A DNA stretch of 64,000 nt from Cinnamomum chago. Lineage: Eukaryota > Streptophyta > Magnoliopsida > Laurales > Lauraceae. The translations under genes and the position numbers were made by a program. The notes beneath the pieces were generated by a model. The model was not told where the DNA came from. It made no database searches and saw only the letters and a program-made list of their open reading frames with translations. Where the stretch lies: assembly GCA_038049695.1 (NCBI GenBank), contig CP142456.1, forward strand, positions 71,447,922 to 71,511,921, written 5' to 3'. Numbering within the stretch: position 1 is the stretch's first letter; each line of letters starts with the position of its first letter. Below are positions 23,366 to 57,369 of the stretch, piece by piece.

Positions 23366-23410
23366 AATATACCTAAAACACAATTATAAAGCCAATCATC
23401 TCCTTAGAAG

Positions 23411-24351
23411 AAAAAATGTCATATTCAATATATGAAATTAACTTTAGTAATTTATTTGCAATATTATGTCCATGACAATGCCAATAAATTCATTTCATTT
23501 GCAAAATCTTAATGAAAAAGAGAAAAAATGGCGTCTTCATAACAACTCTAGCTGCAGAAATATGTGTGATTGGTGGGTCACTTTTGGCTTCTCAAATGTA
23601 CTACATTTGAAGACGTATTGACTTATATCTTCAGAAAAATGAGTCTCTGCATGTGCAACCATCTATCAAGCAAAAGTAGATAGTTAGCAATATAGTGTTA
23701 GTGTTTTATTGTGTGGTATAAATGTGAAATATGAAATTTATGAAAGTCCATGTATTTGTACCAGCGGTGATATAAATGCGCAATATGAAAATTTATGGTG
23801 CAACAGAACCTAATTGAAAGAAGTCTTGAAAACTTTCATACCTTTTTTTAAAATTGAAATATTCAATTCCTTGATCCTTTTTTGAAAACCACCTAAAAAG
23901 TTTAGGGCTGTTTTGAAAATTTAATGTTTACCTTATACTCACTAAGGGCATTTTCGGCCTTTTTTATTTTCTCTTCATAAGAAGTTATGGCGGTGGGTAT
24001 GGATTGCGGGATTGGACTTGATTGAAATAAATCATGAAAACATTCATACGTTTCTGAAATATTGAATTTTTTGACCTTTTTATGAAATCACCCCAGAGTA
24101 AAAAGACTCTTTTGAAAGTTTCCCCATTCAATTTTAGTCACTCTTAAGAATGCTTTTTTTTTTTTAACACTGTACCCACCAATACATATGTAACTAGCAC
24201 ATTTCAATTACCATCTCAGCTCATCACCTTCTAATGCATGGCCATGTCCTTCGTATTTTAATTCCAATCACGCGCGCGATCATCTCTCTTCTCTCTTCTC
24301 TCTTCTCTCTTCTCTCTCTCTCTCTCATGGCTTTTGGAATTTAAACTCAAA
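23411..24351. repeat. Tandem duplication, unit 1 (about 941 bp)
   Basis: Matches unit 2 (24352-24568 continued at 29022-29753) along its length with scattered substitutions and short indels. It runs from the ATATTCAATATATGAAATTA word to the CT-rich tract ending CTCTCATGGCTTTT. It contains the inverted mate of 21424-21745. The uninterrupted position 23627/23628 corresponds to the Helitron insertion point in unit 2. Confidence 0.85.
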
Positions 24352-24568
24352 AAAAAATGCCATATTCAATATATGAAATTAACTTTGGTAATTTATTTTC
24401 AATATTATGTCCATGATAATGCCAATAAACTCATTTCATTTGCAAAATCCTTATGAAAAATAGAAAAAATGGCGTCTTAATAACAACTCTAGCTGCAGAA
24501 ATGTGTGTGATTGGTGGGTCACTTTTGGCTTCTCAAATGTACTACATTTGAAGACGTATTGACTTATA

Positions 24569-26345
24569 TCTACTCTTATAAAAGAGAAGAAAATGCACTT
24601 TGCTTTCACTACACACCTGGCCCACTTAAGAACAAATGACATAACTTGTGTGGGCCCCACTCATATAATATAATATAATATATATATATATATCTATTCT
24701 ATACATCTATACACTAGATTATAAAAGAGGAAATGTTGCATAGTTTTTTCACTACACCATTGTGGGGCTCACACCAAAATATTATAATAAAATATCATAA
24801 TATATTATTATTATTATACACCTGGCCCACTTAAGAACAAATGACATAACTTGTGTGGGCCCCACTCATATAATATAATATATATATATATATATATATC
24901 TATTCTATACATCTATACACTATCTATACACTAGATTATAAAAGAGGGAATGTTGCATAGTTTTTTCACTACATCATTGTGGAGCTCACACCAAAATATT
25001 ATAATAAAATATCATAATATATTATTATTAGTATTATCTACTATATGCTATACTTCTATCTATTTATCTATCTACTATTTTATAAAAGAGGAGATATTGC
25101 AAACTTTTTCACTACACCATTGTGGGGCCCACCCCCAAATATTATAATGCAAACTTTTTCACTACACCTTTGTGGGGCTCACCTCCAAATATTATAATGC
25201 AAACTTTTTCACTACACCATTGTAGGGCCCACCCCCAAATATTATAATATAATATAATAATATATTATTATAAGAAATTGCAAACTTTTTCACTACACCA
25301 TTATGGGGCCCTCCCCAAATACTATAATATAATATAACAATATATTATTATGAGAAATTACAAACTTTTTCACTACACTTATGTGGGGCCCACCCCCAAA
25401 TATTATAATATAATATAATATCTATACCCTTATTATAAAAGAGAAGAACGGTTGCATACTTTTTCACTACACCTTTGTGGGCCCCCCTAAATATTATAAT
25501 ATAATTTAATAATATATTATTATTATTATATTATGATAATAATAATATAATATCTATACCCTTATTATAAAAGAGAAGAAAGTGTTATGCTTTTTCTTTA
25601 CACATCTGTGACCACCACTTAGTATTATTATATTATATATATAAAATCAAATAGAACTACACATATGTGGGCCCCAATGAAAGAGAAGAACTTGTCATGA
25701 TTTTTCTCTACACATCTGTTGGCCTCACTTAGTATTATGATATTATATATATATATATAGATAAAATAAAAGAGAACTGCACATCTGTGGGCCCCACTTA
25801 GTAGAAGAACTTGTCATGTTTTTTCTCTACATCTACACAAATGTAAGCCCTACTTAGTATTATTATATTATATATATAATACAAGAAACCTACACATCTG
25901 TGGACCCCACTTAGTATTATTATATTATATATGTATCAAATAAAAGAGTACTACACATCTGTGAGCCCCACTTAGTATTATTATATTATACCACTTAGTA
26001 GAAGAACTTGTCATGCTTTTTCTCTACACATCTATAGGCCCCACTTAGTATTATTATTATTATATATATATATAATAAAAGAGAACTACATATCTATGGG
26101 CCCCACTTAGTAGAAGAACTTGTCATGTTTTTTCTATACATCTACACATCTGTGGGCCCCACTTAGTATTATTATATTATATATAATAAAAGAGAACTTC
26201 ACATTTGTGGGCCCCACTTAGTAGAAGAACTTGTCATGCTTTTTCTCTACAAATATGTGGGCCCCACTCAGTATTATTATATTATATTATAAATATAATC
26301 AAAGAGAACAACACATCTGTGGGCCCCACTTAGTATTATTATATT
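24569..26345 (+). repeat. Iterated Helitron 5'-end-like modules and minisatellite arrays
   Basis: The word TTATAAAAGAG recurs near 24576, 24720, 24940, 25081, 25435 and 25566. In most cases it follows CTATAC-like sequence and is itself followed by TTTTTCACTACACC and GTGGGGCCCAC, so each looks like a fresh copy of the element's 5' terminus. From about 25.6 kb a second family alternates GTGGGCCCCACTTAGTA, GAAGAACTTGTCATG and CTACACATCTG with ATTATTATATTATATA spacers. A 200-bp block with ACACCTGGCCCACTTAAG is also duplicated (about 24610 and 24817). Confidence 0.85.
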
Positions 26346-28989
26346 TCGATGAAATGCTTAGCACAAATGTTCATGCAAAAGGGTTGTGTTTGAAGATTTT
26401 GTACATTCACTGCAAGAACTCAAATGAAAATTTTCAATTGAGATTTTCATGTGTAGAAAATTTCAACTTCGATCTCAATGCCTGTAAAGACACGATTTGC
26501 TTGTCAGAGAAAGATATGAGAATGCCAAAGATTGCTTGGAATCCTTGTGATTTGTTGTTGATCCATTTAAAGCTATGAGTTGGGTACTATTCTGGTTGGT
26601 TGGTATTTTGTTTCATTGAATTTTCAATGCTAAAAATGAAATATGTGAAATAGAATTGTGACATTTTAAACATTTAGTGCTCCAACAACATTCGACAAAG
26701 TGAACTTTGTGACAATAGAAACTCTATTTTTAATGTTGAGCCTTTTTTTTATGTTACTGAAATAGTGAAGTTTATTTTAAATTTTTATAAGCCGTTAAAA
26801 ATGAAGAAAAGTTGAATATTCAAAAATGACCAACAATGTTAGAAATGAAATAGAATTTTAACATTCAGGGGAGGTAGTGACCAGTTGGGATTTTTTTTTT
26901 TTTTTGTGTTGTATTAGCCAGCTTGGTGGATTGGTTATCTTGTATGTCATCTTTGACATTAGTGGTTTTGGCAGAAGGTTTGGTCCATTTATGATTGTTT
27001 TTTAATCTTTTAATGTGTTCCCCTCTTTCTGGAAAAAAAAAAAGAAAAAGAAAAAATAATTGTAACATGTTACACATTGTAGTGCATCAAACTTTATAAG
27101 GAATGACAAAAAATCGTTCATGTAGTTCCTAAGAGTTATAGGGCTTCAGATTTTCATTAGTGGTTGAAATGTAAAATCATACATGAATATTAAACAATGA
27201 CAATCAAATAACCTCTCTTTTAATGGAAACTGATTTGAGGAAAAATGAGAGATGAATGCTCATACATCACCCTGAAACTCAAATCCCACGATGGTTAAGT
27301 TCCCTTTTGCATCCATAACCTCGTGTTTCTCACCCCTCACTTCTTTAGTAATCTTTCAACAAAGCTTATTTCACTATAAAATTCTGTATATGCTAGTAAA
27401 TATGTTAGGGTGCAGTAGAAATCCGCAATCGATACAAAAAAACTATGCAAGAGTAGATCTAACCAAATAGTCACTCTAAAAAATATAGAAAAATATTTTA
27501 TGTGGTTTGATAGTATGCTTGTGTCAGATCAGAAAAAGAAATACTGGACATATATATATATATCCCATTTACTAAGGAAGTATGGTGTTTTCATGCTTAG
27601 TGATGAGGACTTAGGTGACATTAATGGGTTGAAATGAGGAAGATATTTAATTGATGTGTGGGTGCACTAGCCAAAGATACAGAGATGCTGTGGAGAGGCT
27701 TAAGGTCTATTTAGATGCTTCATTTTCTTAGTAGCCAGATAATCGAGGTGTCATGAAAGTTTTTTTTTTTTTTTAATATGCAAGCATTTGCAGATTTTTG
27801 TCATCTAAGCCTTTTCTTGATTTCTTCATTACATGTAACTTGGTTTTCTTTTAAATTTTATTACTATATATCAAATCAACATCCAATGCAAGTGACTAAT
27901 GGCTTGTCTTATTATTTCTTAAATTATGATAAGGTGTTTTATTCTTCCTTTCAAGTTTTTACGAGTATGATGCAATGGAACCCATCAATTTGATATGCTG
28001 ACTCATGTTTTTAGACCCACCCTCTTATGTTGATTTGAAGAGATTGCTTTAGGGCCCCTGTTTTTTTTTTTTTTAAGCAATTCTGGCAACATGCCTTCCT
28101 TCATTATCATTCTACGTGCTAAACTGTGTTTAAGGCTGCTGATTGTCTTTCTTTATGATTTTGCATGCTTCATCCAATGCATCATCTTAGGTTGAACCAG
28201 TAATTCTCTTAGACTTGATTCTTGTCTAACATTGCAACCACATTACTATAATGCTAGGATAATGAATTTTCTATTAAATTTTCTTAAGAAGTTTGAATGA
28301 AGTAGTTGTGCCCACCCTGAGAGTGCCTGATAATGCATGCCTAAAGATCTCTTTGTAGTTGGTTCTCTTGCTCCAAATTATGATATTTGTTTCAAAAAGT
28401 CACTTACTACAAAATTAGAATGTAACAGAACTGATTTATGATACATAAAAAGCTAACAGAAGTGCCACAAATGTACATGATTCAAAATTTGGTAGTGGTG
28501 TCATCTTAATTCAAGAAAGCTTTTTAAGTTATTGCTCTAGCCCTCATCTTGACATATCAATCTTGTTTCTTTCCATGATATTCAAATTTCTTTGTATTGG
28601 TATTACTATCATTCGGTGCTTCTCAACATGAATTTTGTATGTATTTAGCGCTAGGTTTTAAACAAATTTTAATGGGAAATAGGCCGGACTATCGATCTAT
28701 ATTGAAATTGGTGAGTGTTTTGCCTAATCATGTATGGCCATAAAAGGTTGGTTTTCAACTTTTTTTCGGTTAGTTTCCTTCCATGTATCTTGTTATTCCA
28801 TCTTCTTCTTACTTTTTTCTATTGAAGCTTCTACTGAATTTCGTAAGAACAATTAGTGATTCTAAATTGCTTAATTTGCCAAAAAAATGAGCTATATGTA
28901 AACTGGTCATTCTCCATTGGGATTGTTAATATTGAGTTTTTCAATGATTTTATTTTTCCAGATTATCACACTGAAAGATTGTGTTCTTT
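26346..28989 (+). other. Unique interior of the Helitron
   Basis: No recognisable protein. A 74-codon open stretch ending at 26578 (...WNPCDLLLIHLKL) matches nothing I know. Helitron interiors often hold captured host fragments, but I cannot identify one here. A diverged dispersed-repeat copy lies at 27145-27360. Confidence 0.5.
27145..27360. repeat. Diverged dispersed repeat, copy C, inside the Helitron
   Basis: Shares ordered blocks with 4740-4960 and 7075-7290, including GAGATGAATGC, CATCACCCTGAAACTCAAATCC and CACCCCTCACTTCTTTAG-like words. It is an old fragment carried by the Helitron. Confidence 0.4.
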
Positions 28990-29008
28990 GCACGTGCATT
29001 GCACGTGC
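28990..29008 (+). other. Helitron 3' terminal palindrome
   Basis: GCACGTGCATTGCACGTGC, a 19-nt palindrome of two GCACGTGC halves, ends 13 bases before the insertion boundary. It is the expected hairpin that signals the end of rolling-circle transfer. Confidence 0.85.
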
Positions 29009-29753
29009 AGGGCTCCACTAGTCTTCAGAAAAATGAGTCTCTACATGTGCAACCATCTATCAAGCAAAAGTAGATAGTTAACAATATAGTGTTAGTGTGA
29101 TATAAATGTGAAATATGAAATTTATGAAAGTCCATGTATTTATACAAGTGGCGATATAAATGCGCAATATGAAAATTTATGGTGAAACATAACCTAATTG
29201 AAAGAAGTCTTGAAAACTTTCATACCTTTTTTGAAAATTGAAATATTCAATTCCTTGATCCTTTTTTGAAAACCACCTAAAAAGTTTAGGGCTGTTTTGA
29301 AATTTTAATATTTACCTTATACTCACTAAGGGCATTTGTGGCCTTTTTTATTTTCTCTTCATAAAAAGTTACGATAGTGGGTATGGATTGTGGGATTGAA
29401 CTTGATTGAAATAAATCATGAAAACATCCATACGTTTCTGAAATATTGAATTCTTTTGACCTTTTTATGAAATCACCCCAGAGTAAAAAGACTCTTTTGA
29501 AAGTTTCCCCATTCAATTTTAGTCACTCTTAAGAATCCTTTTTTTTTTATGACACTAAACCCACCAATACATATGTAACTAGCACATTTCAATTACCAGC
29601 TCAACTCATCACATTCTAATGCATGGCCATGTCCTTCGTATTTTAATTCCAATCACGCGCGCGATCATCTCTCTTCTCTCCTCTCTTTCAGTGCTATGCT
29701 CTTAAGCATGCATGACTCTCTCTCTCTCTCTCTCTCATGGCTTTTAGAATTCT

Positions 29754-38137: not shown

Positions 38138-38388
38138 CTCTAGAGCATAGTTACCTAATTCGTTCCATTGAGATCCGAATTTCGTGCAGCACGAAGCGAA
38201 CAAATCGCTGTTTGATTCGTTGAAATCCGGCTCTTGAAAAATTCTTAGTTCAGTACAATTCGAGACAGCCCTATTCAAAAAAACTAGAAAGTCTCTTCTG
38301 TATGTAAATGGGAAGTGGGGTCTTCTAAAGAAATTAAAAAAACAAAGATACAGAAAGTTCAATCTGAAGAGGAAACAAAAACAATAGC

Positions 38389-38446
38389 TTTTAGAAATAG
38401 AGTAGAACTCAAATCATCTTTTAGAAATAGAGTAGAACTCAAATCT
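38389..38446. repeat. 30-bp direct repeat, two copies
   Basis: Two near-identical copies, period 30, of a unit containing TTTTAGAAATAGAGTAGAAC in the left end of the hAT-like element. Confidence 0.8.
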
Positions 38447-38449
38447 AGA

Positions 38450-38769
38450 CATAGCTTAATAAACTCATTCGCTTCCTCAAAAAATCTGCACAGTGGGAGA
38501 ATCCATATTTCAGATCACCGTTCACAAGCTCGTCGCGACTCGCAATCTCTCCTGTAGTGAGGTGCTTTGATTGCAGGTATGATGCTTCCTTTCTTTCTTC
38601 CATAGAGTCTCATTAAGATATAAGAAGGGAAAGGCTTGCAGAGAGATGGGAAAGGTGGATGGTAGAAGTGGAGGTAGGAGAAAAGACGTCCAATAAGTCA
38701 ACTTTCCCAGTTCTCTAGGATTTAATTTATTATTCTTTCCTTTATACTCTCCAAGCCTCCCTCAACTTC
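38450..38769 (+). other. Left interior of the hAT-like element, possible 5' exon
   Basis: The stretch ending TTTGATTGCAG|GTATGATGC (donor at 38577) looks like a non-coding first exon. This would fit a transposase gene whose coding exons lie 10 kb downstream, with later insertions expanding the first intron. No transcript evidence is available. The last bases (ACTTC, 38765-38769) are the target duplication of the solo LTR. Confidence 0.3.
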
Positions 38770-41700
38770 TGTAACGCCCCAATTCCGAATACCGATAAAG
38801 TCGTTCGAATACCCGAAGTTGGCGCGTTACTTCCCGGAAAATCCGAAAACTTCCAAGATCGTAGGCCCGCAGTGAGGTCCAATTTAAAACTTTTGACCAA
38901 TATAAACTCAATGGTTAAATGTGCGGAAGCATAATATATAAAGCGGAAGCATTTGGTATCAATATATAAGTAAAGTGTGAGCAGAACTACAGTCTAGTTA
39001 AAAGTATCAATTGTTAATCAAAAGTTAATACATTTTTCCATAACTACCCGGCTCACCTACAAAATTCTCTCAAAACCCAAACTAAGATAAGACTCTCAAA
39101 ACCCAGGTAAATCATCTCCGCCCTCCAGCTCGACATCCGGGTCGGCCGGGCCCCATCCGTAATCTCCGACGATCGGCACCTCTACTAGGGCAAGCGCATC
39201 CTCTGGGATCTTTGGGTCAAGGCCTAAGCACCAAAGATGGGTCAGATCTAAAAGATCTGGCAAGTCACAGCATACTACTAACATAGGACATATATATCAA
39301 ATGAATAGAGACAGGTAAATAAATTAAAGAATAACAAGGTAATGAACTAGGCAGTCGAGTAGTATAATCATAAGGAATCAGGATAATATAAAACATCTAA
39401 TCTACTACGAAATGACACATTCACACGAGCTGGAATACCGCGGGATATTATGCCGCGGCCCTCACATACTGAACACAGTTGCGGTGGGGAAATCTCACCA
39501 ATGCTGGGAATTACTAATCCCGCAAACCACTCATCATCTCATCATACTCATCACTCAAGATCGGACACGGTATCACACCGTCCATCTTAACCATACAGCT
39601 CATCATGATAGCTCCTCAACACTCATAATAGCTCCTACCGGGGATGATCGTCCACAGGCTGAGCTTAAATCAACCGAGTGAATGTCTATGCCGACTCAAG
39701 AATAACTTTAAGGATCTGTGTCTGTCTAGACTTTGCCTTGCGTGAACAAGGTCATAACCAAGTCTCTAAGAGGTCTATACATCAAATCAGTCTATGAATT
39801 ATATTCCAAGTCCAAGCCCACTCGTTGGATCCATACCAAGGCCCATCAATACATGGCCTGGTCTAAATCAGTCCAAACAAGGCAATATATCCATTTATAT
39901 TGATAAACAGTTCATTCTAATCCATCATGACTTAAAAGCCCAATATAAACTACCTCTTCCAACTTAAAGGTACACATCTCCACACTTAGGCCCAATAATG
40001 CCCGCCTAGACACAGACACGGGTCAATGTTCTCTAAATCATACCAACGGGTCACCTCTAAGATATCCTAGGTTCAGGTCCTCCATTTATATTTAATTAAC
40101 AGTTAACAGCTATACTAAGGATATAAGAGTAACAGTAAATAATAGAAGTGAAGTATGAACTTCAATGAGAGAATCAACGGGAATAACAACAGTCCAATCC
40201 TAGGTAATGGACCACATTCAGGTTCAGATCCATCTCCGGTAATTTGATCTCTAAACGAAGTCACTGATGCCATATGATACTGTGTTGGTGCTTAGGAGGT
40301 TACGGGCATCATTGACAACTCTTAGAGGTCAAATCATCTTAGATTAACAACCAAAATCCTAATCAGTGGTCCCCACGAGTCAAGGTTGAGCCACACCGTT
40401 GACTCGGGCTTAGAACATCGATAAACGTTCATTTGGATGGTCAATGGGCCCCACAACTGATCACAACTTCTAAATGTTGAAAACTGGAAAATCAGGGTTT
40501 CCCAGGGTGCTGGGTCGACCTGGTACGGGCTGGGTCGACCTGGCACACTAGGGGATTGACCCCCAAGTGGACTTGATGTGTAGTGTGCTCGGTTGACCTC
40601 CTGGCCTGGTGGATCAACCGAGTGCACTGAATAATCTGGATCAGGCCTCCTAGAGGTTTAAGTTTGTTTTCAAAGGTTCCCAATGTGTCCGGTCAACCTC
40701 CTGGCCTGGGTGGTTGACCGCATACACCAAAAATCATGAAAATAGTGATGTCCCAGCTTTAAACATTTTTACTGCTAATCCTATGTATTAGGTCGAACTG
40801 AACATAGAGTGTCTGAATTTCAGGTGAAAAACCAACTTTCAGTCAATTCCCACAAAATAGTGTACCCGGGTCAACCTGGGCAAGGCCGGGTCAACCTGGC
40901 TAACTGAAATGGATCTCTGCAGGAAAAATTAACTGAGGGCCAGTTTTTCCCAAAAATACAGTGTCTGCAACAATGGAAATCAATCTGCAGAGCATCTCCA
41001 ACTGGGAGCTAAGTTTCTCAGAAATGCAATGTTCCCGGTCGACCTGGCCCTGCAGGCCGGTCGACCCGGATAACTGAGACAGATCTCTGCAGAAAAATAA
41101 CTGGGAGTTGTCTTCTCCTAGTTGCAGTGTGGCCGGTCAACCGAGCTCTGTAGGCCGATCGACCGGGTACACTGTAGGTGGACTCCCAGGTCAACCTCGT
41201 GCACGAAAACTGGGAAAAACACAGTTTCAGCAGATTTTCCATTTTTGCTCGTTTTTCCTCCAAACCACTTCCAATCCGTCCCAAACTTCACCAAATCATC
41301 ACAAAACATAGAATCACTCCAATGCCCATTAATCAACATCATTTGGACCCATTGATCTTCCAAATGAGGGTGAAACCCCCATCCATCAATGTCCAACCAT
41401 CCAACAAACAACTAAGCTCCATGGTAGTTCTAACAAAATGAAATTAACTGAACTGAAAACAAACGAATCAATGCACAGAACATACAACCTAAGTTAAGAG
41501 TATGATGCACTTGCCTTTTGCTTGGGAGAGAAGGTTTGCAGAGGAAGATATGGAGAGAGATAGAGAAATCCCAATGCAAGAAGAAGAAGAAAAAGTGGCT
41601 GCAGCTCCTAGTATTCTCCCAGCACAACAGTCCCAGTACTTAGCTCAAAGAAGAAGAAATGAGAGAGAGGAAGAAGAGAGGAAAATGAGGAAGGAATAGT

Positions 41701-42100
41701 TGCTAGGGTTTTGGGGATTTGTGCTTATTTATAGATTGGGGGAGGTGGCTAAAGACTGAAAAGCCCTTTAGGGTTTCATAGGATTAGGGTTAGGGTTAGG
41801 GGCTCTTTGGTCTTTAGGTTAGAAGGTTCTAGAGGATGCCTTTTTGCAATAACCCCCCTTTAGTAAACCCTATTAACTAGCTAAGGCCTCCACTCACTAA
41901 TAAACCCTAGAATTACACTAGACACCCTACAAACTCAATTACCCACTCAACTAAACTAGTCTAACTACAACTTAGGGAAAATCTATCTAATTACCCTGAT
42001 TAACTCCTAATTAGCATAATTAGCTATTAATTAGCAATAATTAGTATTAATTAGCATTTAAAATATAAATTAGAGGGCCCACAAAGGGTGGGGCCTCACA
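38770..42100. mobile_element. Solo LTR, 3,331 bp, Ty3/gypsy-like
   Basis: Begins TGTAACGCCCC and ends GGGGCCTCACA (TG...CA) with the 5-bp target duplication ACTTC on both sides (38765-38769 and 42101-42105). No gag, protease, RT or integrase coding is present and no second LTR, so it is a solo LTR left by recombination. TGTAACGCCCC starts and multi-kilobase length fit plant gypsy LTRs by general knowledge; the lineage is unassigned. A TATA-like TTATTTATAG lies near 41726. A short GGATTAGGGTTAGGGTTAGGG tract at 41780-41800 is telomere-like by chance or descent. Confidence 0.88.
40505..41180. repeat. Diverged GGTCGACC/GGTCAACC palindromic blocks in the LTR
   Basis: Five or six blocks (near 40509, 40590, 40690, 40866, 41036, 41130) each contain a pair of GGTCRACC-type words around a GC-rich centre such as CCTGGCCTGG or CCCTGCAGGCC. 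Several are spaced about 170 bp apart. Two are followed by AACTGA-rich text with ATCTCTGCAG. They lie upstream of the TATA-like motif, where a U3 enhancer would be expected. Confidence 0.7.
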
Positions 42101-42105
42101 ACTTC

Positions 42106-43109
42106 AATCCAATCTCATCCTCAATACAAATCGTGAAAATCCCAAATCAAATCACCTATTTAAATCTAAATCGTGCAAAATAAGCATCTTACCGGTTTAT
42201 AGGATATGTATGTAATATTCATTAATCAGAGTTTCATCTACCGTTAGCTTGTCATTCAGATGAAAAATGTGATGATAATAATGTTTGTTTATCAAGCAGT
42301 CAATCAATGGTTGAATGAACTCAGATTGATGTAAGATTTGAGGATACCCTTCGTAAGTATATGGTATGAATTTTGTACAGTTCAGATTTTAGTAGATGGG
42401 CCCGACTTTAGAGTTACACTCCTTTAACACATGAGTTCTCTAAGTTAAAATCATAGAGTATCCTCATTCATACATGTCAATTGAAAGCTTATCCTTTCTC
42501 TCTCCTTATGCACATGTTTTGACAACTCACTGTACAACCAACTGACCTTTCTTGATACTATTTAAAAGCCTGTCTAACCTTTTTTTTTTTTTTATGTTTT
42601 TATTGTTTACCTTTAGACTTATCTAAGAATCTGTAAGTGGGCCAATGAGAAATCCTAACCGATGTAAATAGCTTACTCCCAAGATTAATCAAGTTCCACT
42701 CTAAAATAAATTAAATAAACAGTAAGATTAAACACTTACCAGATTTATGAATAAAATATTATAGCAGAATTCACTTAGTTATATTAAATAAATCAACGGT
42801 TAATCCTGACTACTTTATATTTTTTATATATGTGCCCCACTTTAAGTAGCACAAGTATTGTATGATACATTGAGAAAATTTGAAATTTTAGATTAATACA
42901 TTGAGAAAATTCACAATTTTAGATAATAAGGGAGAAGTAAAATAGTAAAAAAGGAAGAGGAGGCTCTTTTCTCTCCCCTTCCATTTTTTTATGGATTTAG
43001 TCATTTTTTTTAAAAATAAAAAATAATAAGATATATTAATTATATAACATTTAAATAAGGGAGGGCCTCTCCTCAGCTCATGCTGAGGAGAAGGTCCGCT
43101 CACCACGTG
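42106..43109. other. hAT-like element interior between the solo LTR and the FAR1-related gene
   Basis: AT-rich, no gene. An inverted repeat CCTCAGCTCATGCTGAGG occurs at about 43070-43087, close to where the CpG-rich leader of the FAR1-related gene begins. Confidence 0.45.
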
Positions 43110-43514
43110 TGGGTCAAATACAATGAAGACTTTTCATCAAAGGAAGCCCGCCCAATTTCTGATGAAATTATATGACTGTCCCCGCCCAACGCTTGAAACC
43201 CATTTTCCATCCCAACCTTTCTCTCTATCCCTTCCATCCGAAGTCCTCTCTCCGCCAGCACCGGAACTCCGTGCGCGGCCAGAAATCGACCCGACCCCAG
43301 GCTCTCTCCCGCGACTGCCGATCGTCCCCCAGGTTTCGTCTCTCTTCCGCGACTGCGACCGTCGATCGTCCCCAGGCTTCGTCTCTCTCCCGCGACTGCC
43401 GATCGTCCCCCATGTTTCGTCTCTCTTCCGCGACTGCGACCGTCGATCGTCCCCAGGCTTGGTCTCTCTCCCGCGATCGTCTCTCTCTCTCTCTCTCTCT
43501 CTCGCGACCGCTAG
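43110..43514 (+). other. Putative 5' non-coding exon of the FAR1-related gene
   Basis: CpG-rich, pyrimidine-rich segment ending in a CT run and a strong donor (GACCGCTAG|GTAAGG at 43514/43515), about 1 kb upstream of the FAR1-related coding region. The open frame through it encodes only low-complexity Ser/Arg/Pro sequence made by an 81-bp tandem repeat, so I read it as leader, not protein. Confidence 0.45.
43302..43470. repeat. 81-bp tandem repeat, about two copies
   Basis: GCGACTGCCGATCGTCCCC recurs at 43311 and 43392, and GACTGCGACCGTCGATCGTC likewise. The period of 81 bp is a multiple of three, which is why a frame stays open through it. Confidence 0.9.
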
Positions 43515-44550
43515 GTAAGGGATCCGCCCTCCCTCTCTCTGCTTTTCAGTTTTTTCGTTAAATGCACTGCAACCAGTTGAAATGGAATGTGGGTTTTTTT
43601 TTTAATTTCTTTTATGTGCAAGTTCTGGGTTTTGTTAGATTTGACAGATTCAGTTTGAGATTCTATGGTTTGTGGTGGGGATTTGAGTGTAGGGATTTTA
43701 AGGTTTTGGGTTTTTTTACCTTTGAATTCCTAGTGAATTTGTGATGTACTAAGAGAATGACAACATTTTGTATTTTCCTCTTCCAAAGTAATGTCAACCT
43801 AAATCTTGTGATTCAATTGGCCACATTTGTTTTTGGACTCAAGAGGCTGTAAGCATCTTTGAACTTACATTGACGTATTTTGGGAATTCTCTGAAACTTA
43901 ATAATCTCTCCTCTGATTTAGGAATTCAGTAAACAACAATGGTATTTGCATTTTTAGTATTCATCTTACAGATTTTCAATGTACTCTTTTTTATAATGTT
44001 TTTTTTTCTATGTGCATCAGGTAATTATGGCAACACTGACCTCCTTCCTCAGTGTTGCTTTTTCATAAATATCATTCTCTCCTGTAAAACTTTTTTCTGT
44101 CATCAAAAACAAAATGTGTCCAAGCCCTCTTACTAAAACAATTTTCACTAAGTCATAGCAACTATCAACTTTGATCACCAGACATAAATTAGTCATTCAG
44201 ATACAATTCCTATGAACCCAATCATTCATGTGAAGTCATGCCATATTTCTTTTCTTTTATGGCTACCTTCTTCGTCAATGATCCTCATAAAGGTAATATT
44301 CATCACTATCAGCTGTATATAATTTTTTTTAAAGATTACAAGCAACTTCTCAGATGCTGTGCCTACAGGTGCAGCTCATCAAATCTAACTAAAGATTGCA
44401 ATAATCATAGTTTAAAGATTACAAATTATTTTTTGTATTGCTGATGTCTATGACACGCAGGAATGTCTTCCGTTTCTGTCATTCTTTGTATATCCTTTTT
44501 TTATGTGTTTATAGGAGCAATCACGTTTTTTTATGTATTACAGTTTCAAG

Positions 44551-46864
44551 ATGGATATAACATCCTCATCAACAACACGTTTGCACTATCCAGATGTCGG
44601 AGAGGATATGACCCCAAAAGTGGGGATGAAGTTTGATAATTTAACGGAGGTGTATGATTTTTATAATGCTTACGCGAAGCTTGCTGGGTTTAGTGTAAGA
44701 AAAGATTCAACTCGTACTAAGGATGGGGAGGTACTTTGGAAGCGATATTTTTGTTCAAAGGAGGGTAAAACAGATGAGAAACATTGGAAAGATAAGGAAT
44801 GTGTTCAAAGGCGTCGAATGGAAACAAGAGAAAACTGTAAGGCTCAGTTGCAAATTAAAAAAGATCAAGCAGGTTGTTATATAGTGTCCAAGTTTATCCC
44901 GAGCATTCCCCATGCCCTCACCACTCCTCATAAGAGATTCATGTTGAGATCACATCGAGGGGTGCCGGAATCAAAGAAACAATTAATAAATACACTTGAT
45001 TCTGCCAATATTCGAAGCACCCAACAAATGGTAGTGTTCGGAAAGCAGTCGGGGGGACTTGAGACGATTGAATTTACAGATAAAGATGCTGAAAATCATC
45101 GTAGAAATGAAAAGGAAAAGAAAAAGGGACTAGATGGGGATATGTTGTTTCAACATTTTGAGAATCGGAAAGAAATGAGTAATGGCTTTATTTATAATAT
45201 AGAGAGAGATGGAGATAACAAAGTCACACATGTTTTTTGGGCAAACCACACATTCCGTACAGCATACAGTGTCTTTGGTGATGTTGTAACATTCGACACA
45301 ACGTATAAGACGAATTGTTATGGATTAATTTTTGGTGCGTTCGTAGGTTGCAATCACCATGGTCAAACAACACTATTTGGCTGTGCGTTCCTCCCAAATG
45401 AAAAGGCTGAGTCATTTGAGTGGCTATTTAATAAATGGCTTGAAGCAATGTTGGGTGGTCCACCAAAAGGAATTATAACCGATCAGGATTTGGCTATGAC
45501 AAAGGCCATTCAAAAAGTAATGCCGAACACTACTCATCAATATTGCTTATGGCACATTATGGACAAACTACCAACAAATTTAAGAGGGGTTTCTATTCAA
45601 AATGAAGGTTTGATTGATAGTATAAAGAAATGTGTGCATAATTCTGACTCTCCTGCTGATTTTGAATGTGAATGGAAATGGATCATGACAGAATATAAGG
45701 TTGGGGACAATGAATGGTTGACACAAATATTCAACATTCGGGATATGTGGGTACCAGCCTTTTTAAAAGATAGTTTCTTTGTCGGTATGTCAACTACTCA
45801 GAGAAGTGAAAGTATGAATGCCTTTGTGAAGCACTATGTAGAATACAAGAACACACTTCTTGATTTTATATTGCGTTTCGAGCAAGGCGTTGAACGGTTA
45901 AGATATCTTGAAAAGAAAGAGGACTACGAGTCAAGCAATGGGAGACCGAAGCTGAAGGCATATTCTTCAATGGAAAAGCAAATGGCGGATATATATACGA
46001 GAATTTTTTTTTATAAGTTTCAAGATGAGCTTTTCATGACTATGTCAATCGTTCCATTACTTGTGAATGAAGATGATGTTAGGTATGTCTTTACCGTGAA
46101 AGATTTGACGGATGAAAACGAAAGAGAAAGAGATGTTTTGTGGAAGAAAGAGGAGAAGCTTGCTTTTTGTTCATGCAAAAAGTTTGAGTTCGAAGGCATC
46201 CCATGTCGTCATGTATTGTCTGTCATGAGGCAGTTTTGTATCAGATATTTGCCGGGGCATTACATTTTGAGGCGATGGACAAAGAAGGCTAGAGTTGGAA
46301 CATTTGTTGATAAAGATGGAGTTGAGATAGGATCTCATTGTTCTGACTCATTTATGGCAAGACATAATCATCTATCTTGTATTTTCAATGCACTAATTGA
46401 AGAAGCCAGCTCATCCAAAGAATGTTATGATGTCTTGGTTAGTAAGCATGCGGAGTTACAATTGAGCGTAAGAGAAGCCAAATCAAAAGATGCATCCGAA
46501 AGAAGTGTGTGCGATGAGCGAGAAATTATAGGCAGCAATGTCATAGAATATCATGATCCGCCACATGTTACTACAAAAGGACGGGCTAAGAGGCTAAAAT
46601 CCTCAAAAGAGAAAGCAACAACGGGACGTCTTTGTCGTGGTTGCAACAAACGTGGCGTATCACATGACAAGCGCAATTGCCCGGTACTATTGAATAGGTA
46701 AAAAGAAAACGTCCTAATTGCATTTATCATCTATTTTCATTTTATGTTCTAATGAATTTATAACACATTAATTCAGATTACGAAGCGAAGATGAACACAA
46801 TGATCCAGATCTTAATCTTCATAGTAACGAGAGTTCGGACGGCTCTGATTCAGGCATTCAGTGA
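44551..46864 (+). CDS. FRS: FAR1-related sequence (FRS) protein, MULE-transposase derived
   Basis: Main exon is open from 44533. I prefer the start at 44551 (MDITSSS) over the in-frame ATG six codons upstream. A donor at 46698 (AATAG|GTAAAAAG) and acceptor TTCAG at 46776 add an acidic 28-residue tail ending at 46864, for about 744 aa. Unspliced it stops at 46701. Numbering from 44533: FAR1 DNA-binding region 34-130; MULE transposase core with D255 (FDTTYKTN), D317 (ITDQD), CLWH and RSESMNAF; SWIM finger about 546-560 (CSCKKFEFEGIPCRH); C-terminal knuckle CRGCNKRGVSHDKRNC. FRS proteins are domesticated transposases acting as transcription factors. The first His of the N-terminal HxH zinc motif is missing. 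It lies inside the 13-kb hAT-like element. Confidence 0.88.
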
Positions 46865-48496
46865 ACTATAATGGTATTTGCCTTATGTCTTTTAAATACT
46901 TGCAATGTAATTGCATTGTTCAGCAGGATGTGCTAGCAATTGACTACTAGACATGATAGTGGTTTCATTGTTTAGTGGTGTTTTGTTGCACCTTCTTAGT
47001 TGCGTTGGACTTCTTGGTTGCAGCTTCTTGTTTGGATCCGGTGTGCTATCCACGGCATCCATCCTATTGCTATTATGTTCGAATTTCCATTCCTTGGTTT
47101 TGGTAGTCGGGACTATTTTCTATGTAACTTCAAATGCAGGACTTGACTGTTGTGAACTTAACTTGTTTATTCTTTTAAATGTTATGTAGGATTTCCTTAT
47201 TTTAGTATTGTTGTCATTGATGATTGGTCATGCTTATTTATGGCATATTTGGTAAGCATCCACTGGTGCAGCTGTTCTCTGTTATTTAGGTCATGTTTAG
47301 TTGCAGCTGAAATCTTACACCCATGTCAAAGTCTTGTTCTTTGTTTCTTTGTTTTTTTTTAATGAATGGTCTCATTGAAGTTTTGTAGGGCAGCTTCCTC
47401 AAACTACAAGCTCTCATCCTTATCCCCTTGTTTTATCTTTTCTACCTCAAGAGGAGGGGATCCTCTGCCCCCCACATGCACCAAAGCAGCTTGAACAGAG
47501 CCACTATCACCACCACAGCCCTTTCTTTGGTAAATTCTTAGAGCATCATCTTTTCTTATTTCTAGCTTCAACACTCTTCAGTAAATGTTTTTTTTTCTTT
47601 AATTCTTGAATTTCATATTTTCTCTATGGTCATTAAAATTATCTTGTAGACAAGTAATTTATGTCTTGTACTTGTAATTATAGTGAAAAAATGGAACATG
47701 TCCCATCTGATGCTGGATTCCCTTTGTATCATTGTAGTTGCCCCTTTGATGTTGTTGTTTTAGAATTTGGAGCCACCTCCAACACCCAAGGGACTAATGT
47801 CCCCTCTGCTTCAAATTCCAAACAACCCACAATTTGGGGTGTATCCAACATGCCTGGAAAATTAGAACTGCTCTTTATTTTTTATTTTTCTCTTTTTATG
47901 GGTGTGTTGAAACACTTACTATCACATCCTGCCAGTAGTTGTAAATTGTAATATGAATATATGAATCTGATTTAAATCATCATCATCATCCTATCTATTA
48001 TGGGTCATCTGATCAATCTTTTTTTTTTTTTATGTGTATTGCTAATTATCAGCCTTTTGAGATGGGCATGAAGAACGACCTTAAGGAGATACTCCCAGTA
48101 GTCACCTTTGATGAGGATTTGAGGGAAAGAGACCACTCAATGAATATATATTAGAGAAAGATCATTTATCTCTACTCAATGAATCTGATGGTGTGACCAT
48201 TTCTTATTAGAGTGAGTTTAAATTTATACCATTGTCAACAAAAAGAAACTTATAAATATTTACAAGCCATCAAAATTTTAATAGCAGGCTCATTGTTAGG
48301 CCCAATAGAAAAAATTATAAATTCATAACAATGGAAAAAATAGGAGATTTGAAAATATTTTTCATTAGAATGCAGTCTGGAAGGGCTCAATTATGACTTA
48401 GAAATGCACACTTTCAAATAACTAGAGGTAGAATTGCAATATTGATTATGTATTAAAATTACATTATTCTTAATATCTTGAAATTTATGCATCATA
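46865..48496. other. DNA between the FRS gene and the hAT transposase relic
   Basis: The first few hundred bases are likely FRS 3' UTR. The rest has no recognised coding region. It probably includes the original intron or leader of the hAT transposase. Confidence 0.45.
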
Positions 48497-50735
48497 ATGT
48501 TTAGTGGACAAAGAAAAAGAAAGCAACAAGAAGATGATAATGTCATTTCTATTGATGAAGAAGTCGAACACGACATCGATGAGAAGAGTGATGAAGATAT
48601 CGATGATAATCAAAATAATATTCCTTCAGGAAAAGAAAGTCTTTTTAAAGGAAAGCTCCTATGGGATGAAGTGAAGATATTGGGGGATGCGAAAACTGGT
48701 AAATTATGGCTTTGTCCACACTGTAAGCGTGAGTTCAAAAGTTCCTACACAAGAATTCACCAACACTTTTTTGGGCCAGGGCCAAATAAAAAATCAGCTA
48801 TTACCTGATGTCAAGCATTGCTTAAGCAACCTAAAGGTCCTCAATTATTACAAGAAATTATTGATAGGGTAAAGAAAGCGGAGAAATTCGGAGTTCATTC
48901 ACAGTTAAAGCACTCAACACTTCTCCCACTACAACAAGTTAAGCAAAAGAACCCAATTATGGAGTCCTTTAAGAAGGTAGAAAGAGATTTTGTTGACAGT
49001 GCAATAGTGAGATGGTTATGTGCTTGTGGAGTGCCCTTCAATATATTGCGGTCCCCATTTTTTCATGAAATGATTTCAGCTGTAAATAAAGCACTGAAGG
49101 ATATAAAGCGCCTTCATTTGAAAAGGTTAGAACATCTTTGTTAGATGAGGAGAAAAGAAAAGTGGAGAATGAAATTGCAGTAATTAAAGATACATGGCAT
49201 ATGCATGGTGTATCTATCATCTCTGATGGATGGACCAACATAAAGAATCAGCCACTGATTAATGTGCTTGCAGCAAATAAGGATGGGGCGATGTTTTTGT
49301 ATGCGGTAGAGTGCTCTGGTGTTGAAAAGACTGGATCTTATATAAAATCCTTATTGATAGATGCAATTGAGGAGGTAGGTCCATCTAATATTGTTCAAAT
49401 AATCACAGACAATGCAACCAATTGCAAGCTGGCAGGTAAGGAAGATTTATAGTCATATATTTTGGTCTCCTTGCGCCTGTCACACAATTAATTTGATCTT
49501 TAAAGATTTGTCAAAGCATTGGCCATCATATGAAGAATATTATACCATGTGCAAGACAATTGTGACATATATTATCAATCATACACATGCATTGGCAATA
49601 TTTAGAAGTCATTCTAGATTAGAACTTCTAAAAGTTACAAAGACTCGATTTGCTTCATATTATGTAATGATGAAGCGACTCTTAGATGTGAGACAGGCCC
49701 TTAAATCAACCGTTGTTCTTGATGACTGGAAAGAATGGGCAAAACATGGCGATGAAAAAATGCAAGAGATAGCAGAAAACATAAAGCGATGGGTGACCGA
49801 TGATGAGGATACTTTTTGGACAAATGTGAGGCAAATGGTAAAAATTACCAAACCCATTTTCAAAATGATTAAATTTTGTGATCAAGATGGACCATTGATG
49901 GGGGAGGTATATGAAGGAATGGACAATATGCTTGGTAAAATAAAAGATAGTCTCAATGGTGTGCAAATTTTAAGGAGATTTATGAGATGATGGAAAATAT
50001 TGTAATAAAAAGGTGGAAAATGATGCATAGCCCATTACATTGTCTTGGATTTGCACTCACACGTCGGTTTTATGATTCATCATATCTTACTAAATTAGCA
50101 CATGGTGGTGAGAAAAGAAAGCCCCCAAATCAAGATAAGGAGGTCATAACGGGAGTGATGGAAGCATTTGAAAGACTAACTAATGTAAGCATCTTCAATT
50201 TAAATTTTTATAGATATTTCATTTATTATGTTTTTAATATGTACCTAACACATTCAATATTATCAATTTGTTTTTTCATTAGGACACTGAAGCTGAGGCT
50301 AAATTGAGGGCTCAATATGCCATATTTCATTCTAAAGATGGCATTTTTGGGCTTCCTGCAGTAAAGGTGGATGCAGTCACTATGTCACCAATAAAATGGT
50401 GGTCAACATATGGATCAGAGACACCAGAGCTAGCGGAGATAGCTATAAATGTTCTTGCACAACCCGTAAGCTCATCGTCTGCAGAGAGGAATTGGAGTAC
50501 GTATTCATTTATCAATAATGTCAAAAGAAACAGGCTTAACGCAAAATGTGCAGATAAACTTGTTTTTATTCATTCAAATCTTCGCCTTTTATCACGCATG
50601 AAGGAGGGATATAATGAAGGACCATTTAGAAAATGGGACATTGATCCTGAGCCAGATGTTATTGAATATTCAAGTACACATTTAGAAGACCTAAGATGGA
50701 AAGCACTAGACAATGATGATGAGCCTCAACTTTAA
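48497..50735 (+). pseudogene. hAT transposase, decayed
   Basis: Reads in order: acidic N-terminus; BED-type zinc finger (LWLCPHCKREFKSSYTRIHQH); an in-frame TGA at 48806 followed at once by CQALLKQPKGPQLL; a DUF659-like part (SIISDGWTNIKNQPLINVLA, IITDNATNCK); FWSPCACHTINLI; TRFASYYVMMKRL; and the C-terminal dimerisation domain (PVSSSSAERNWSTYSFI). Frame changes occur near 49096 (before GYKAPSFEKVRTS), 49438 and 49970. A 98-bp intron (50185-50282) splits the last part. With one premature stop and three frameshifts it cannot make transposase. The match of family with the 8-bp duplication and subterminal repeats supports it as the element's own gene. Confidence 0.9.
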
Positions 50736-51239
50736 AATCGTAATGACAGTAGAGTGGAGTCCCGACTAGGTGGTACAACAAATGTTGCAGTCACCCAATC
50801 CTCTTTACAATCACGTCCACCTAGTAGACAAAGAAGTATTTCATCATATGGATGCGGTTTGCCATCTTCTCATGACAAAGGGAAAAAGCAATGGAAATGA
50901 AGACTTTTATTTCATACTCCTATTTCTGATGAATTTTTATTTTATACCTTACTTTTTATTTATGTTTTGGTATTTGATATTTTTTATCATTTTTATTTGG
51001 TGTTTAGGATTTAATTTATTTTATATGGATAGTTAAATGATTGAAGTTTATTGATTAATAAAAGAAAAAGGTTATGGAATGTTTTTAAACATTTATTTTC
51101 TCATAGTTTATTGATTTAATGCTTTTAACCATTTATTTTCTCATACTTATTAAAGCATCAAATGACTAAAAAAAATATTTATGCATATATTGAATGGACA
51201 TACGAATTATATCAAACTATATCAAATTATATATTCGAA

Positions 51240-51398
51240 TTAACTTAGCGAATTCATCGAACTAGAACTGCGAATCAAGCGAATTGAAAACCGAATTAAC
51301 TCAGCCTACCCCATTGAATTTTCGAATTTAGGTAACTGTCGAATTGCGAACTGCGAATTCGAATCCAAATTGGTAGAACTGCGAATCAGGTAACTATG
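51240..51398. repeat. Subterminal CGAATT/GAATTCG cluster at the hAT right end
   Basis: About ten CGAATT, GAATTCG, GCGAATC or TTCGAAT words occur within 160 bp next to the terminal repeat, in both orientations. This is the arrangement that hAT transposases bind. Confidence 0.75.
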
Positions 51399-51518
51399 CT
51401 CTAGAGTGATGTAGATCAGTAGATGTATCTATGACTTATTAGAAGGTCTTAAACTTTCACAGGAAAGGTAACATAGAAGACATTTAAATCAGAAAAGGGC
51501 AAGTGGAAACATTAGTAT

Positions 51519-52133: not shown

Positions 52134-53517
52134 ATCTTGAAGCATATGACTGACTTGAGCAATACAGACACTTGGAACTATGCCTCTAAGCCCAACCCCA
52201 ACAGATGTAATTACCATTACAGCAGACCCCGCCGTGAACCTTGCAATCATACTAGATGCTGCTAGCCTAGTGTCACAGGCTATGATCTTTGGCTACAAAT
52301 CCTTGCTTGATATTTTCAGCAAATTTCATTTTTATTTCACATGCTACAAACCCAACTACAAAAAGAACAGAGAATCTAATTATATAAATATAGTAATACT
52401 CCTAACAAGACTAAACTAGACATTCCAAGACCAGCAGTTGACAATACCGTAACTGAGTTTTCCATGATTTGAGGCTTCTTAAATCTTAATGCCCCCCCTA
52501 CAATGAAACTTTATTAATATATTAGAATCATTAGTCTCGTAAGAAACCATATATCAACCCAAAAGCTTAAGCTGATAAGTGGAAGGCCCGTACAGATATA
52601 TTAATATATGTCAAGCCTATTACTTAGGCGATGTCGGATGTAGGACTTCTCAACACTCTCCCTCATATACAGGCCCAACAGATTTTATAGAAGGACATAT
52701 CACGTGGCCTACACAAGAATAATGGGATCGGAACCCGCTTTAATACCAAGTTTTTGGGTTGGTAAATGGTTTGTTACAAGTCTTTTATTATATTAGATGT
52801 TTATTTGGACATATCCCAAATCGCAATTGGTTTGAAATTTCCAACTCTCAAGTGATTTCTTTTCCATTATAACAAAATGCTAGAGACAGAACCATCTTGT
52901 GAATTTTGGTACATACCAAAGTAACCAAACAAACCTATACTTGGAAAGACATGAAAGCTACCTATAAGAAACAAGTGCCCGGCTTAGATCCAACAAGAAT
53001 GCACATGAATTTGGGTTCCTAATTTGTACCAAACCATTCTCATGATAACACTCAAAAAAAAAAAATCTCTGAAGTAATGGAAGATTTCTCCAAATTCTCA
53101 TGCTCTGTGTCTTCTCTTCATAGATCTCTGTGTCAATTTAATGAAAAAAGAGTGAGATGCAAATAAATACATAGATATTTACTCTCATTGGCTTTGACTA
53201 CCTAGTCATAACTCTTAAATAAAAAAAACTTTTTAAATTAGTGCAAAATAGAAGCATATAAATATAAAGGCCTAGTTTCAGATTCTTGCAAAAACAACAA
53301 GAGAAGAAATCAGGACAAAATATTGTGGGGCATTCGGCGATGAGTCCCTGAACATTTCACTTTATTGCCTTAAATCCACAATCTTTTTTCATAGTGTGAT
53401 ATGTCATTTTTTCAAATTTGAAGACCTAAAATGTTTAATTTACCATTTCTTCAAAATCATATCCCACAATTAGTGGGATAAGCCATTAATAATAGTCAAC
53501 TACCATTTAATTGACCA
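52134..53517. other. Gene-free intergenic DNA
   Basis: No gene recognised. About 52540-52770 (CAACCCAAAAGCTTAAGCTGAT..., CTCTCCCTCATATACAGGCCC, TAATACCAAG) resembles widely dispersed repetitive sequence of plant genomes, but I cannot define its ends. Confidence 0.4.
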
Positions 53518-54020
53518 AATAAATTTCAAAAGATCCAAATAAATTTCAAAAAATGTAAATAAATTTCAAAAGATGAAAATCAATTTCAAAAGATCAAAAT
53601 AAATTTCAAAAGACGAAAATAAATTTCAAAAAATGTAAATAAATTTCAAAAGACGAAAATAAATTTCAAAAGATGTAAATAAAATAAAAAAACAAAAATA
53701 AACTCTAAAAAAACAAAAACAAATTTCAAAAAATACAAATAAATTCGAAATAAAGAAAATAAATTTTAGAAAATGCTATAATATCAAAAGAACATAGAGA
53801 AATTTAAAAAGACGAAAATAAATTTCAAAAAATCTAAACAAAATTCAAAATATATAAATAAATTCCAAAATATAAAAATCAATTTAAAAAGACACAAATA
53901 AATTTCAAAAGCTGAAAATCAATTTCAAAAGATACAAATAAATTTCAAAAAATGTAAAAAAATCTCAAAAGACTCAAATAAATTTCAAATGATGTAAATA
54001 AAATTAAAAAAAAAATAAAT
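53518..54020. repeat. 20-bp minisatellite, about 24 copies
   Basis: A regular 20-bp unit of the form AAATTTCAAAAGATGNAAAT, strongly A-rich on the plus strand, varying mainly at the GATG/GACG/AATG position. Confidence 0.9.
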
Positions 54021-54346
54021 TTAGAAAAACGCAAATACATTTGCCACAAATTCGGATTAATTTGTCCACACTCAGATAAATTTGTCTCATAACTCAGATA
54101 AATTAGCCAAAACTCAGATAGATTTGTCCAGAACCTAGAGAAATTTATTTCAGAACTCAAATAAATTTGCATAAAACTCAAATAAATTTGATAAAAAATG
54201 AAAAACTCAGATAAATTTGACAGAAACTCATATAAATTTGCTAAAACAAAGATAAACTTGAAAAAAAATTAGATAAATTTTACAAACACTTAGATAAATT
54301 TCATTAAAACTCATATAGATTTGTCAAAAGACTCAAATAAATTTTT
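54021..54346. repeat. Second, diverged array of about 18-22 bp units
   Basis: Repeats of ACTCAGATAAATTTG with variable spacers continue directly from the 20-bp array, sharing the ATAAATTT core. It abuts the ATL pseudogene, whose stop codon falls in the array. Confidence 0.8.
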
Positions 54347-55747: not shown

Positions 55748-55761
55748 AAGTGCAGTGACAC

Positions 55762-57369
55762 CAAGGCCTCTTCCTTCCTCTCTCCAAGGTCCCCTCCACC
55801 CCCTGCCATCTGCTGTATGCTGATGACATTCTCATCTTCATGAAAGGGGCTGCCTCTAGTGTTTCAATTCTTCAGGACCTCCTGGAGACGTATCAGTCAG
55901 CTGCAGGTCAATTCTTTAATATGCAGAAGAGCCAACTGTTCATTGGTAAATGCAGCTCGAGAAGAAAGAGAAGAATCAGCTCCACTCTAGGCATTCAAGA
56001 AGTTTCTACTCACCTTAAATATCTGGGTACCCCAATCTGTTTTGGGACTCCTATAAGGAGACACTTCCTCCCTCTGTTGGATGTTGTTCAGTCCAAGCTC
56101 TCTGCTTGGAAAGCCAAAACTTTGTCCTTTGCAGGCCGGTTAACTTTTATCAAGCATGTTATTTCTAGCCTTCCTGTTCACCTTGCTGCTATCATTCCCC
56201 TGCCTGCTTCAGTATGCAAAGAGATCGAGAGACTTATGAGGCATTTCCTCTGGTCTGGAAATGCCCCCAATCACAAGATCAACTATGTCAGTTGGGCTAC
56301 TGTCACTCTCCCAAAGGTTGAAGGTGGCTTGGGAATTAGGAAAATTGCAGACGTTAACACAGCTTCCTTCATCAAGCTTGGATGGCAAGCTTCCACCTCT
56401 CACTCCCTCTGGTCCATATGGTTTAAGAATCGTTATTTTAAATTCCGTTCCATTTGGAGCTCAGAGAATACTAGCTATGGCTCTTGCATCTGGAAGAAAA
56501 TCCGCAGATTAGCTCCTATCATTCACCAAGGAAGCTCCTGGATATTTGGCAATGGCCAGAGCATTAACGTCTGGCACGACTCCTGGTCTGCAAGTGAACC
56601 TATTTCTACTTGCTTCCCTGGACATCCTTTTCCTAGAGACCAACGACTCTCTTCCCTTTACCAGTTTGGGACCTGGGCTACTCCAGTTCTCCTGCCTTCA
56701 TATATTCAACAGCACCTCCTTCTTCTCCTCAAGGATCTTTCTCCAAACCTTGTCATCAGTGATTCCCTCAGCTGGAGAGACTCCCCTGATGTAAAGCTCT
56801 CCTTGAGCTCTGCGTGGCAGAGAATCAGACATAGAGCTCCTCTTCTCCCCTGGCCTAAGCTGATATGGAACATCCTCTCACCCCTCAGAGTCAATTGCTT
56901 CGGCTGCCGTTTGATGCACAACAGACTCCCCACAGACACTTGGCTGAAGCGGCTGGGCTTTTCCCTTGCCTCCAGGTGTATTTTTTGTAGAGCAGCAAAA
57001 GACTCAGTGGGTCACCTTTTCTTCTACTATGATCAAGCTAAAGCAACTTGGTCCTGGTTTCTTCATGCGGCAGGGGCTCCTCCTCCTCCTTCCAGCTACT
57101 CAGCATCTTCACTTTGGTCGACCCTCTCTAAAGATACTGACGCCAAAGGCTTCAAATTCATGGTTGTCATCTTCATCTCAGTTCTATACCAACTATGGAA
57201 GGCTCGTAATGAAGCAATTTTTGATAACTGCATGCCCTCTCTCCACTCCATCCAAGCTCAACTAACTGAAGCCATCTCTTACTCCCTGAAGCAGATGACT
57301 TCCCCTTTCGTCAGTCTCCATCTCAGCGCCCTCTTCGTCTCTACGAGAATTCCTCCAGTGCCTAACTAG
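55762..57369 (+). pseudogene. LINE ORF2 C-terminal part (reverse transcriptase, zf-RVT)
   Basis: An open frame of about 535 codons starts at the truncation with no own start. It includes the RT catalytic motif as LLYADDILIF (near 55815-55839), thumb/connection sequence (LKYLGTPICFG, LSAWKAKTLSFAGRL), the GGLGIRK motif, and a C-terminal zf-RVT region (WPKLIWNILSPLRVNCFGCR, CIFCRAAKDSVGHLFFYYDQA). In zf-RVT domains a Cys usually sits where this has Tyr (FFYYDQA), so one zinc ligand is probably lost. The endonuclease and N-terminal RT are missing. No frameshift or stop has accumulated, so the insertion is young. Confidence 0.92.

Follow-up and report, generated by a model that had tools for sequence, protein, structure and literature searches.

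How does a 13-kb transposon of the hAT superfamily come to hold a complete FAR1-type (FRS) gene? The question is raised by a 64,000-nucleotide stretch of the Cinnamomum chago genome (the window; G000:C6:71447922-71511921), in which the hAT unit occupies 13,253 bp at 38146..51398. An initial annotation, made from the letters of the window, offered two answers, namely that a Mutator-like element (MULE) had inserted into the hAT element or that the hAT element had acquired a host transcription-factor gene as cargo. In this study, we conclude with high confidence that the locus is a nested transposon, that is, a hAT element holding a solo long terminal repeat (LTR) and a right-truncated MULE of a FAR1-type family that targets (TA)n. 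The first answer is upheld, as the gene is absent from all three other near-complete hAT copies found in the genome and lies elsewhere between inverted ends of its own. The second falls away, since the gene encodes the transposase of a MULE that is present in many copies, and an arrangement that had been thought unusual is ordinary transposon nesting. The features of the locus are listed below in window coordinates, with target duplications and terminal inverted repeats (TIRs) indicated.

38138..38145, unstranded: left 8-bp target duplication CTCTAGAG, recognised from the 8-bp duplications of other copies
38146..38769, plus strand: hAT left arm, starting with the TIR CATAGTTACCTAATTCG; 94.7-96.1% identity to three genomic copies
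38770..42100, unstranded: solo LTR of 3,331 bp, TGTAACG...CTCACA, with ACTTC at 38765-38769 and 42101-42105; absent from the three other hAT copies
42101..43058, plus strand: hAT interior separating the two insertions; 96.5-97.6% identity to the three copies
43059..48142, plus strand: MULE fragment with left end and transposase, without right end (48133-48142 is junction sequence); absent from the three other hAT copies, with its MULE family elsewhere
43059..44116, plus strand: MULE left end and CpG-rich leader, from the match to family termini and the inverted recurrence in right arms
44551..46701 (from 44515 if read stop to stop), plus strand: main open frame, FAR1-type MULE transposase, from matches to FAR1, MULE and SWIM domains
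48143..51398, plus strand: hAT right part, with the right TIR at 51382-51398; 96.1-97.4% identity to the three copies
48500..50899, plus strand: broken hAT transposase gene (DUF659, hAT dimerisation domain), from domain matches and listed frames
51399..51406, unstranded: right 8-bp target duplication CTCTAGAG, repeating the left copy

The hAT element and its uninterrupted copies

The first 300 bases served as the query in a search of the 1.06-Gb assembly (14 contigs), and all 34 candidates were scored (49 rows). Besides the window, three loci match over 298-300 bases at 93-94% identity, the other matches being shorter or only 72-89% identical. These three loci are complete elements of 4,867, 4,874 and 4,878 bp, flanked respectively by GTCAAGTA/GTCAAGTA, CATCACGG/CACCACGG and ATTAGGAC/ATTAGGAC. 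All three align to the window in the same three blocks (about 38145-38769, 42099-43058 and 48143-51399; 94.7-97.6% identity), and neither the solo LTR nor the 5,084-bp segment 43059-48142 is present in any of them. They are continuous across the two interruption sites, apart from 45 bp that are duplicated locally in copy C6b at the position of the LTR. The window unit is therefore a 4.87-kb hAT element plus two insertions, and the sizes balance, as 13,253 less 3,336 and 5,084 leaves 4,833 bp against copies of 4,867-4,878 bp. In the least damaged of the three copies, C5 (L013, G000:C5:18122934-18127811), the 8-bp duplication is exact and frames of 603 and 211 residues are still open.

The definition of one large element by matching 17-bp ends and an 8-bp flank thus held good, both ends being present in the three other copies, and for this reason we take the ends to be more than chance. 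In the window, ends and flanks together (38138-38162 and 51382-51406) are complementary at 24 of 25 bases (96%), and the TIR proper, CATAGTTACCTAATTCG and its partner, at 16 of 17. CTCTAGAG is a perfect palindrome, identical to its own reverse complement, so that at this locus alone a target duplication is inseparable from a longer inverted repeat; it is the non-palindromic flanks of the other copies, exact for GTCAAGTA and ATTAGGAC and agreeing at seven of eight positions for CATCACGG/CACCACGG, that establish the 8-bp duplication and the start of the TIR. The transposase with its dimerisation domain, likewise characteristic of hAT elements alongside the short TIRs and the 8-bp duplication, survives in the window as a DUF659 and hAT dimerisation domain (PF04937, PF05699) scattered over several broken frames, a relic that the initial annotation had recognised. 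The subterminal AATTCG clusters that it also described are clear at the right end, where AATTCG/CGAATT occurs nine times at 51203-51361; the left end has only three (38157-38262), of 33 in the whole window.

This scarcity of AATTCG on the left, together with a palindromic flank that is ambiguous alone, might be taken to mean that the two ends come from separate elements and that the 13-kb unit is illusory. We give this almost no credence, as it is refuted by three single copies, each of which has the two ends, ordered alike, between 8-bp duplications.

The solo LTR reported for the left part of the unit was likewise found, at 38770-42100 between two copies of ACTTC. A 500-base query taken close to its start found 3,033 candidate places across the genome, and the best 40, which were scored, showed 93-100% identity. 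Reading the LTR as a sign of the age of the unit is plausible.

The FRS segment as a member of a dispersed MULE family

The second insertion was traced with 43100-47200 as query, the best 40 of 553 candidates being scored (49 rows, from which the window and nine secondary pieces were set aside). The FRS sequence proved to be a dispersed repeat with at least 39 other genomic places among these best candidates, and at four of the places listed the identity is 98% over 44033-47200. Three copies, L018, L019 and L020, match the window as far as 48132, near the end of the insert, and their similarity to one another continues past the point at which the window stops. L019 (about 7.9 kb) and L020 (about 10.5 kb) are complete, their two ends being inverted and each bordered by a TA tract, and the inverted repeat of L019 is about 430 bp long; the right end of L018 is degenerate and also adjoins a TA tract. 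With 200 bases of the L019 left end as query (best 40 of 152 candidates scored, 40 rows), the ends formed at least 17 convergent pairs within 50 kb, whereas two other arrangements gave a single pair each. An FRS match lies inside at least 10 of the 17 convergent pairs, which accounts for 10 of the 19 best copies (L017-L035).

It is at this point that the cargo reading has to be weighed, in which the hAT element took up an intact host FRS transcription-factor gene and carries it about. The frame is indeed open and encodes the FAR1, MULE and SWIM domains of FRS proteins, and to this extent the FRS gene of the initial annotation is real. A host FRS factor, however, would be neither bounded by transposon ends nor a dispersed repeat, whereas this sequence has at least 39 other places and MULE ends bracket 10 of the 19 best copies; its description as a domesticated gene does not stand. 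Moreover, of the 48 other hAT left-end rows, not one comes within 50 kb of an FRS place among the 39 listed outside the window, and there is thus no sign of a hAT family carrying the gene as cargo. We reject this reading, which we consider extremely improbable, because the FRS sequence belongs to a MULE dispersed through the genome.

The family is also marked by its targets. The test of target preference used 29 end rows, namely 20 that represent 10 of the 17 pairs and nine others, including that of the window. The rows of the window, of L023 (the same end as L046) and of C11a (mis-anchored) were dropped, which changed the count from a raw 21 of 29 to 20 of 26. Of the 26 usable ends, 20 thus have, in the first 45 bp outside their core, a TA run of 10 bp or more, compared with 0.66% of 5,000 random 45-base pieces of the window. 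Six ends lack such a run, and four of these six belong to two elements with exact 9-bp target duplications, ATTAAGTAA and TCTAAATTA. Inverted ends on both sides, and either duplications of about 9 bp or insertion into (TA)n, as expected of MULEs, are accordingly found in the family; the window copy has neither the right end nor a duplication at its junction. As judged from these copies, the FRS gene is the multi-copy transposase of a MuTAnT-like, (TA)n-targeting MULE.

Ends, junctions and proposed history

The CpG-rich leader, which had been assigned to the FRS gene as its own, is instead MULE end sequence, because 43066-43112 matches the termini of L018-L020 at 85-89% and because L018 and L020 each hold 43185-44116 in their right arm in reverse orientation, split into two pieces (95-98% identity). 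A 42-bp direct repeat at 43911 and 46843 (none of 60 shuffles scored as high), whose 46843 copy also matches the L020 right arm in inverted orientation, is on this evidence a motif common to the MULE's end and its 3' region. The right arms of L018 and L020 (with L037, L039; L038, L040) contain inverted copies of the window leader, and their left ends are of another type. The window element couples one end type with a body closest to elements having the other left-end type, and it may be that ends were exchanged between subfamilies of the family.

On the left, the MULE terminus GGGAGGGCC follows immediately after ATTTAAATAA. On the right, MULE homology stops at 48132 and is followed by about ten bases and then by hAT sequence from AATATATATT. 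The sequence ACTCAATGAAT at the right junction recurs 40 bp off in the hAT element, which would be consistent with a deletion that removed the right end and was closed by templated end-joining. A search for MULE TIRs inside the window alone gave a best inverted match with a score of 32, equalled by 4 of 60 shuffles; no TIR is visible there because the right end is missing. For the same reason the window MULE should no longer be mobile as a unit.

The history that we favour runs as follows. The 4.87-kb hAT element inserted and duplicated CTCTAGAG, and an LTR retrotransposon afterwards entered its left part and was reduced to a solo LTR. Before or after the LTR, a MULE of the (TA)n-targeting family would have inserted by its own transposition where the hAT interior is A+T-rich, its right end being lost later through a deletion that was presumably sealed by end-joining.

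Several observations weigh against this nested-insertion history. Neither a target duplication nor a right TIR was found at the window MULE junction. The stretch that the MULE entered is A+T-rich, but no TA run near the junction is longer than 6 bp. In addition, the left end of the window MULE is of a type other than that of L018-L020, the nearest being that of the C11 element, which lies beside a TA tract and is 77-78% identical (43031-43732).

The absence of a target duplication and of a right TIR, and the recurrence of ACTCAATGAAT only 40 bp away in the hAT element as a sign of end-joining repair, would also be expected if the MULE piece had been copied into the hAT element during the repair of a break, by template switching or abortive gap repair, the captured segment being itself transposon DNA. 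Under repair, however, the left boundary would coincide with the MULE terminus only by chance, and the junction signs are equally compatible with a later deletion of the right end. We therefore regard capture during repair as unlikely and prefer insertion of the MULE followed by loss of its right end.

Three further features of the window stand apart from the element. At 23408-29751, tandem arrays are surrounded by two direct repeats (23628-24341 and 29022-29751; 91% identity) that lie about 5.4 kb from each other and are possibly the LTR pair of another element. At 53516-54345 there is a dense tandem array, mostly inside a 1-kb interval of 23% G+C, and 55759-57369 retains part of a LINE-type reverse transcriptase frame, which matches zf-RVT and, in part, RVT_1.

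The transposase frame and comparison with known systems

The main frame has a MULE transposase domain (PF10551, E 2.1e-30) within the FAR1-MULE-SWIM domain order of FHY3, FAR1 and FRS proteins, and a short last exon at 46777-46864 is probably spliced to it. By analogy with MULEs, the FAR1 domain may bind the MULE ends and the MULE domain may cut and join them. A comparison of the transposase with solved structures gave no match up to E 0.1, and a comparison of the gene with a plasmid collection, which is uninformative here, also gave none. Against all 19 relatives the window copy has two compensating 1-bp differences, near 44896 and 44908 (44896-44910), that leave the frame open. Between the two changes the window reads IPSIPHA, compared with VPEHSHA in L017 and L020 and VPKHSHA in L019, and one His of a conserved His-x-His in the FAR1 domain, which we take to be a zinc ligand, is gone from the window copy. 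The FAR1 domain is termed a C2H2 zinc finger in the account given in PMC13306707. Loss of binding by the window FAR1 domain is only a suggestion, because its Pfam score (65.7 bits) is only slightly under those of L019 (67.3) and L020 (72.0).

Pairwise ratios of nonsynonymous to synonymous divergence (dN/dS) between the window copy and its relatives range from 0.25 to 0.99 (19 comparisons) and do not exceed 0.59 in 18 of the 19, which fits past constraint on the transposase family and says little on the window copy itself. The longest open frame reaches at least 728 codons in three of the 19 relatives (L019 and L020, and also L017, whose end is changed) and is shorter in the other 16.

Annotation would label this MULE transposase FRS or FAR1, and this bears on counts of FAR1-family genes in plants, for which 18,744 genes from 80 species are given in PMC8599713. 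Members of the family that retain both ends and an open frame could serve in studies of the recognition of MULE ends by FAR1 domains. It might also be supposed that this recently spread MULE family is a living mobile sister of FHY3/FAR1 and that the window copy, with its dead hAT element, open frame and altered FAR1 domain, is an early step towards a host gene; we hold this to be very unlikely.

With regard to known systems, foreign coding sequence within a hAT element is shared with the hAT that captured histone H3 in Pseudocercospora fijiensis (PMC6710886) and with the Pack-TYPE hATs (PMC8903248). As these are described, however, a host gene was amplified or shuffled, whereas here the window copy is the only hAT copy found with the segment. 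The transposase shares its FAR1, MULE and SWIM order with the FHY3/FAR1/FRS factors as set out in PMC13306707. In contrast to those host genes, which are said there to have lost transposition, it belongs to a dispersed element whose relatives have ends and target duplications.

A close likeness, by description, is to MuTAnT/AutoMuTAnT of Medicago truncatula (PMC4486113), for which the account reports insertion into (TA)n, 9-bp duplications at a few non-microsatellite sites, foldback-type TIRs, complete elements that encode a MULE transposase, and the lack of part of a TIR in roughly a quarter of copies. AutoMuTAnT differs in its length of 4,873 bp, complete elements here being 7.9-10.5 kb, and in being described there as Jittery-like, while the protein studied here is recognised by its FAR1, MULE and SWIM domains. 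Ends in microsatellites and target duplications in some copies are also reported for SaTar, the microsatellite-bound MULEs of guayule and rice (PMC5907723), although SaTars, according to that description, are mostly short and non-autonomous and have 10-bp duplications, unlike the elements described here.

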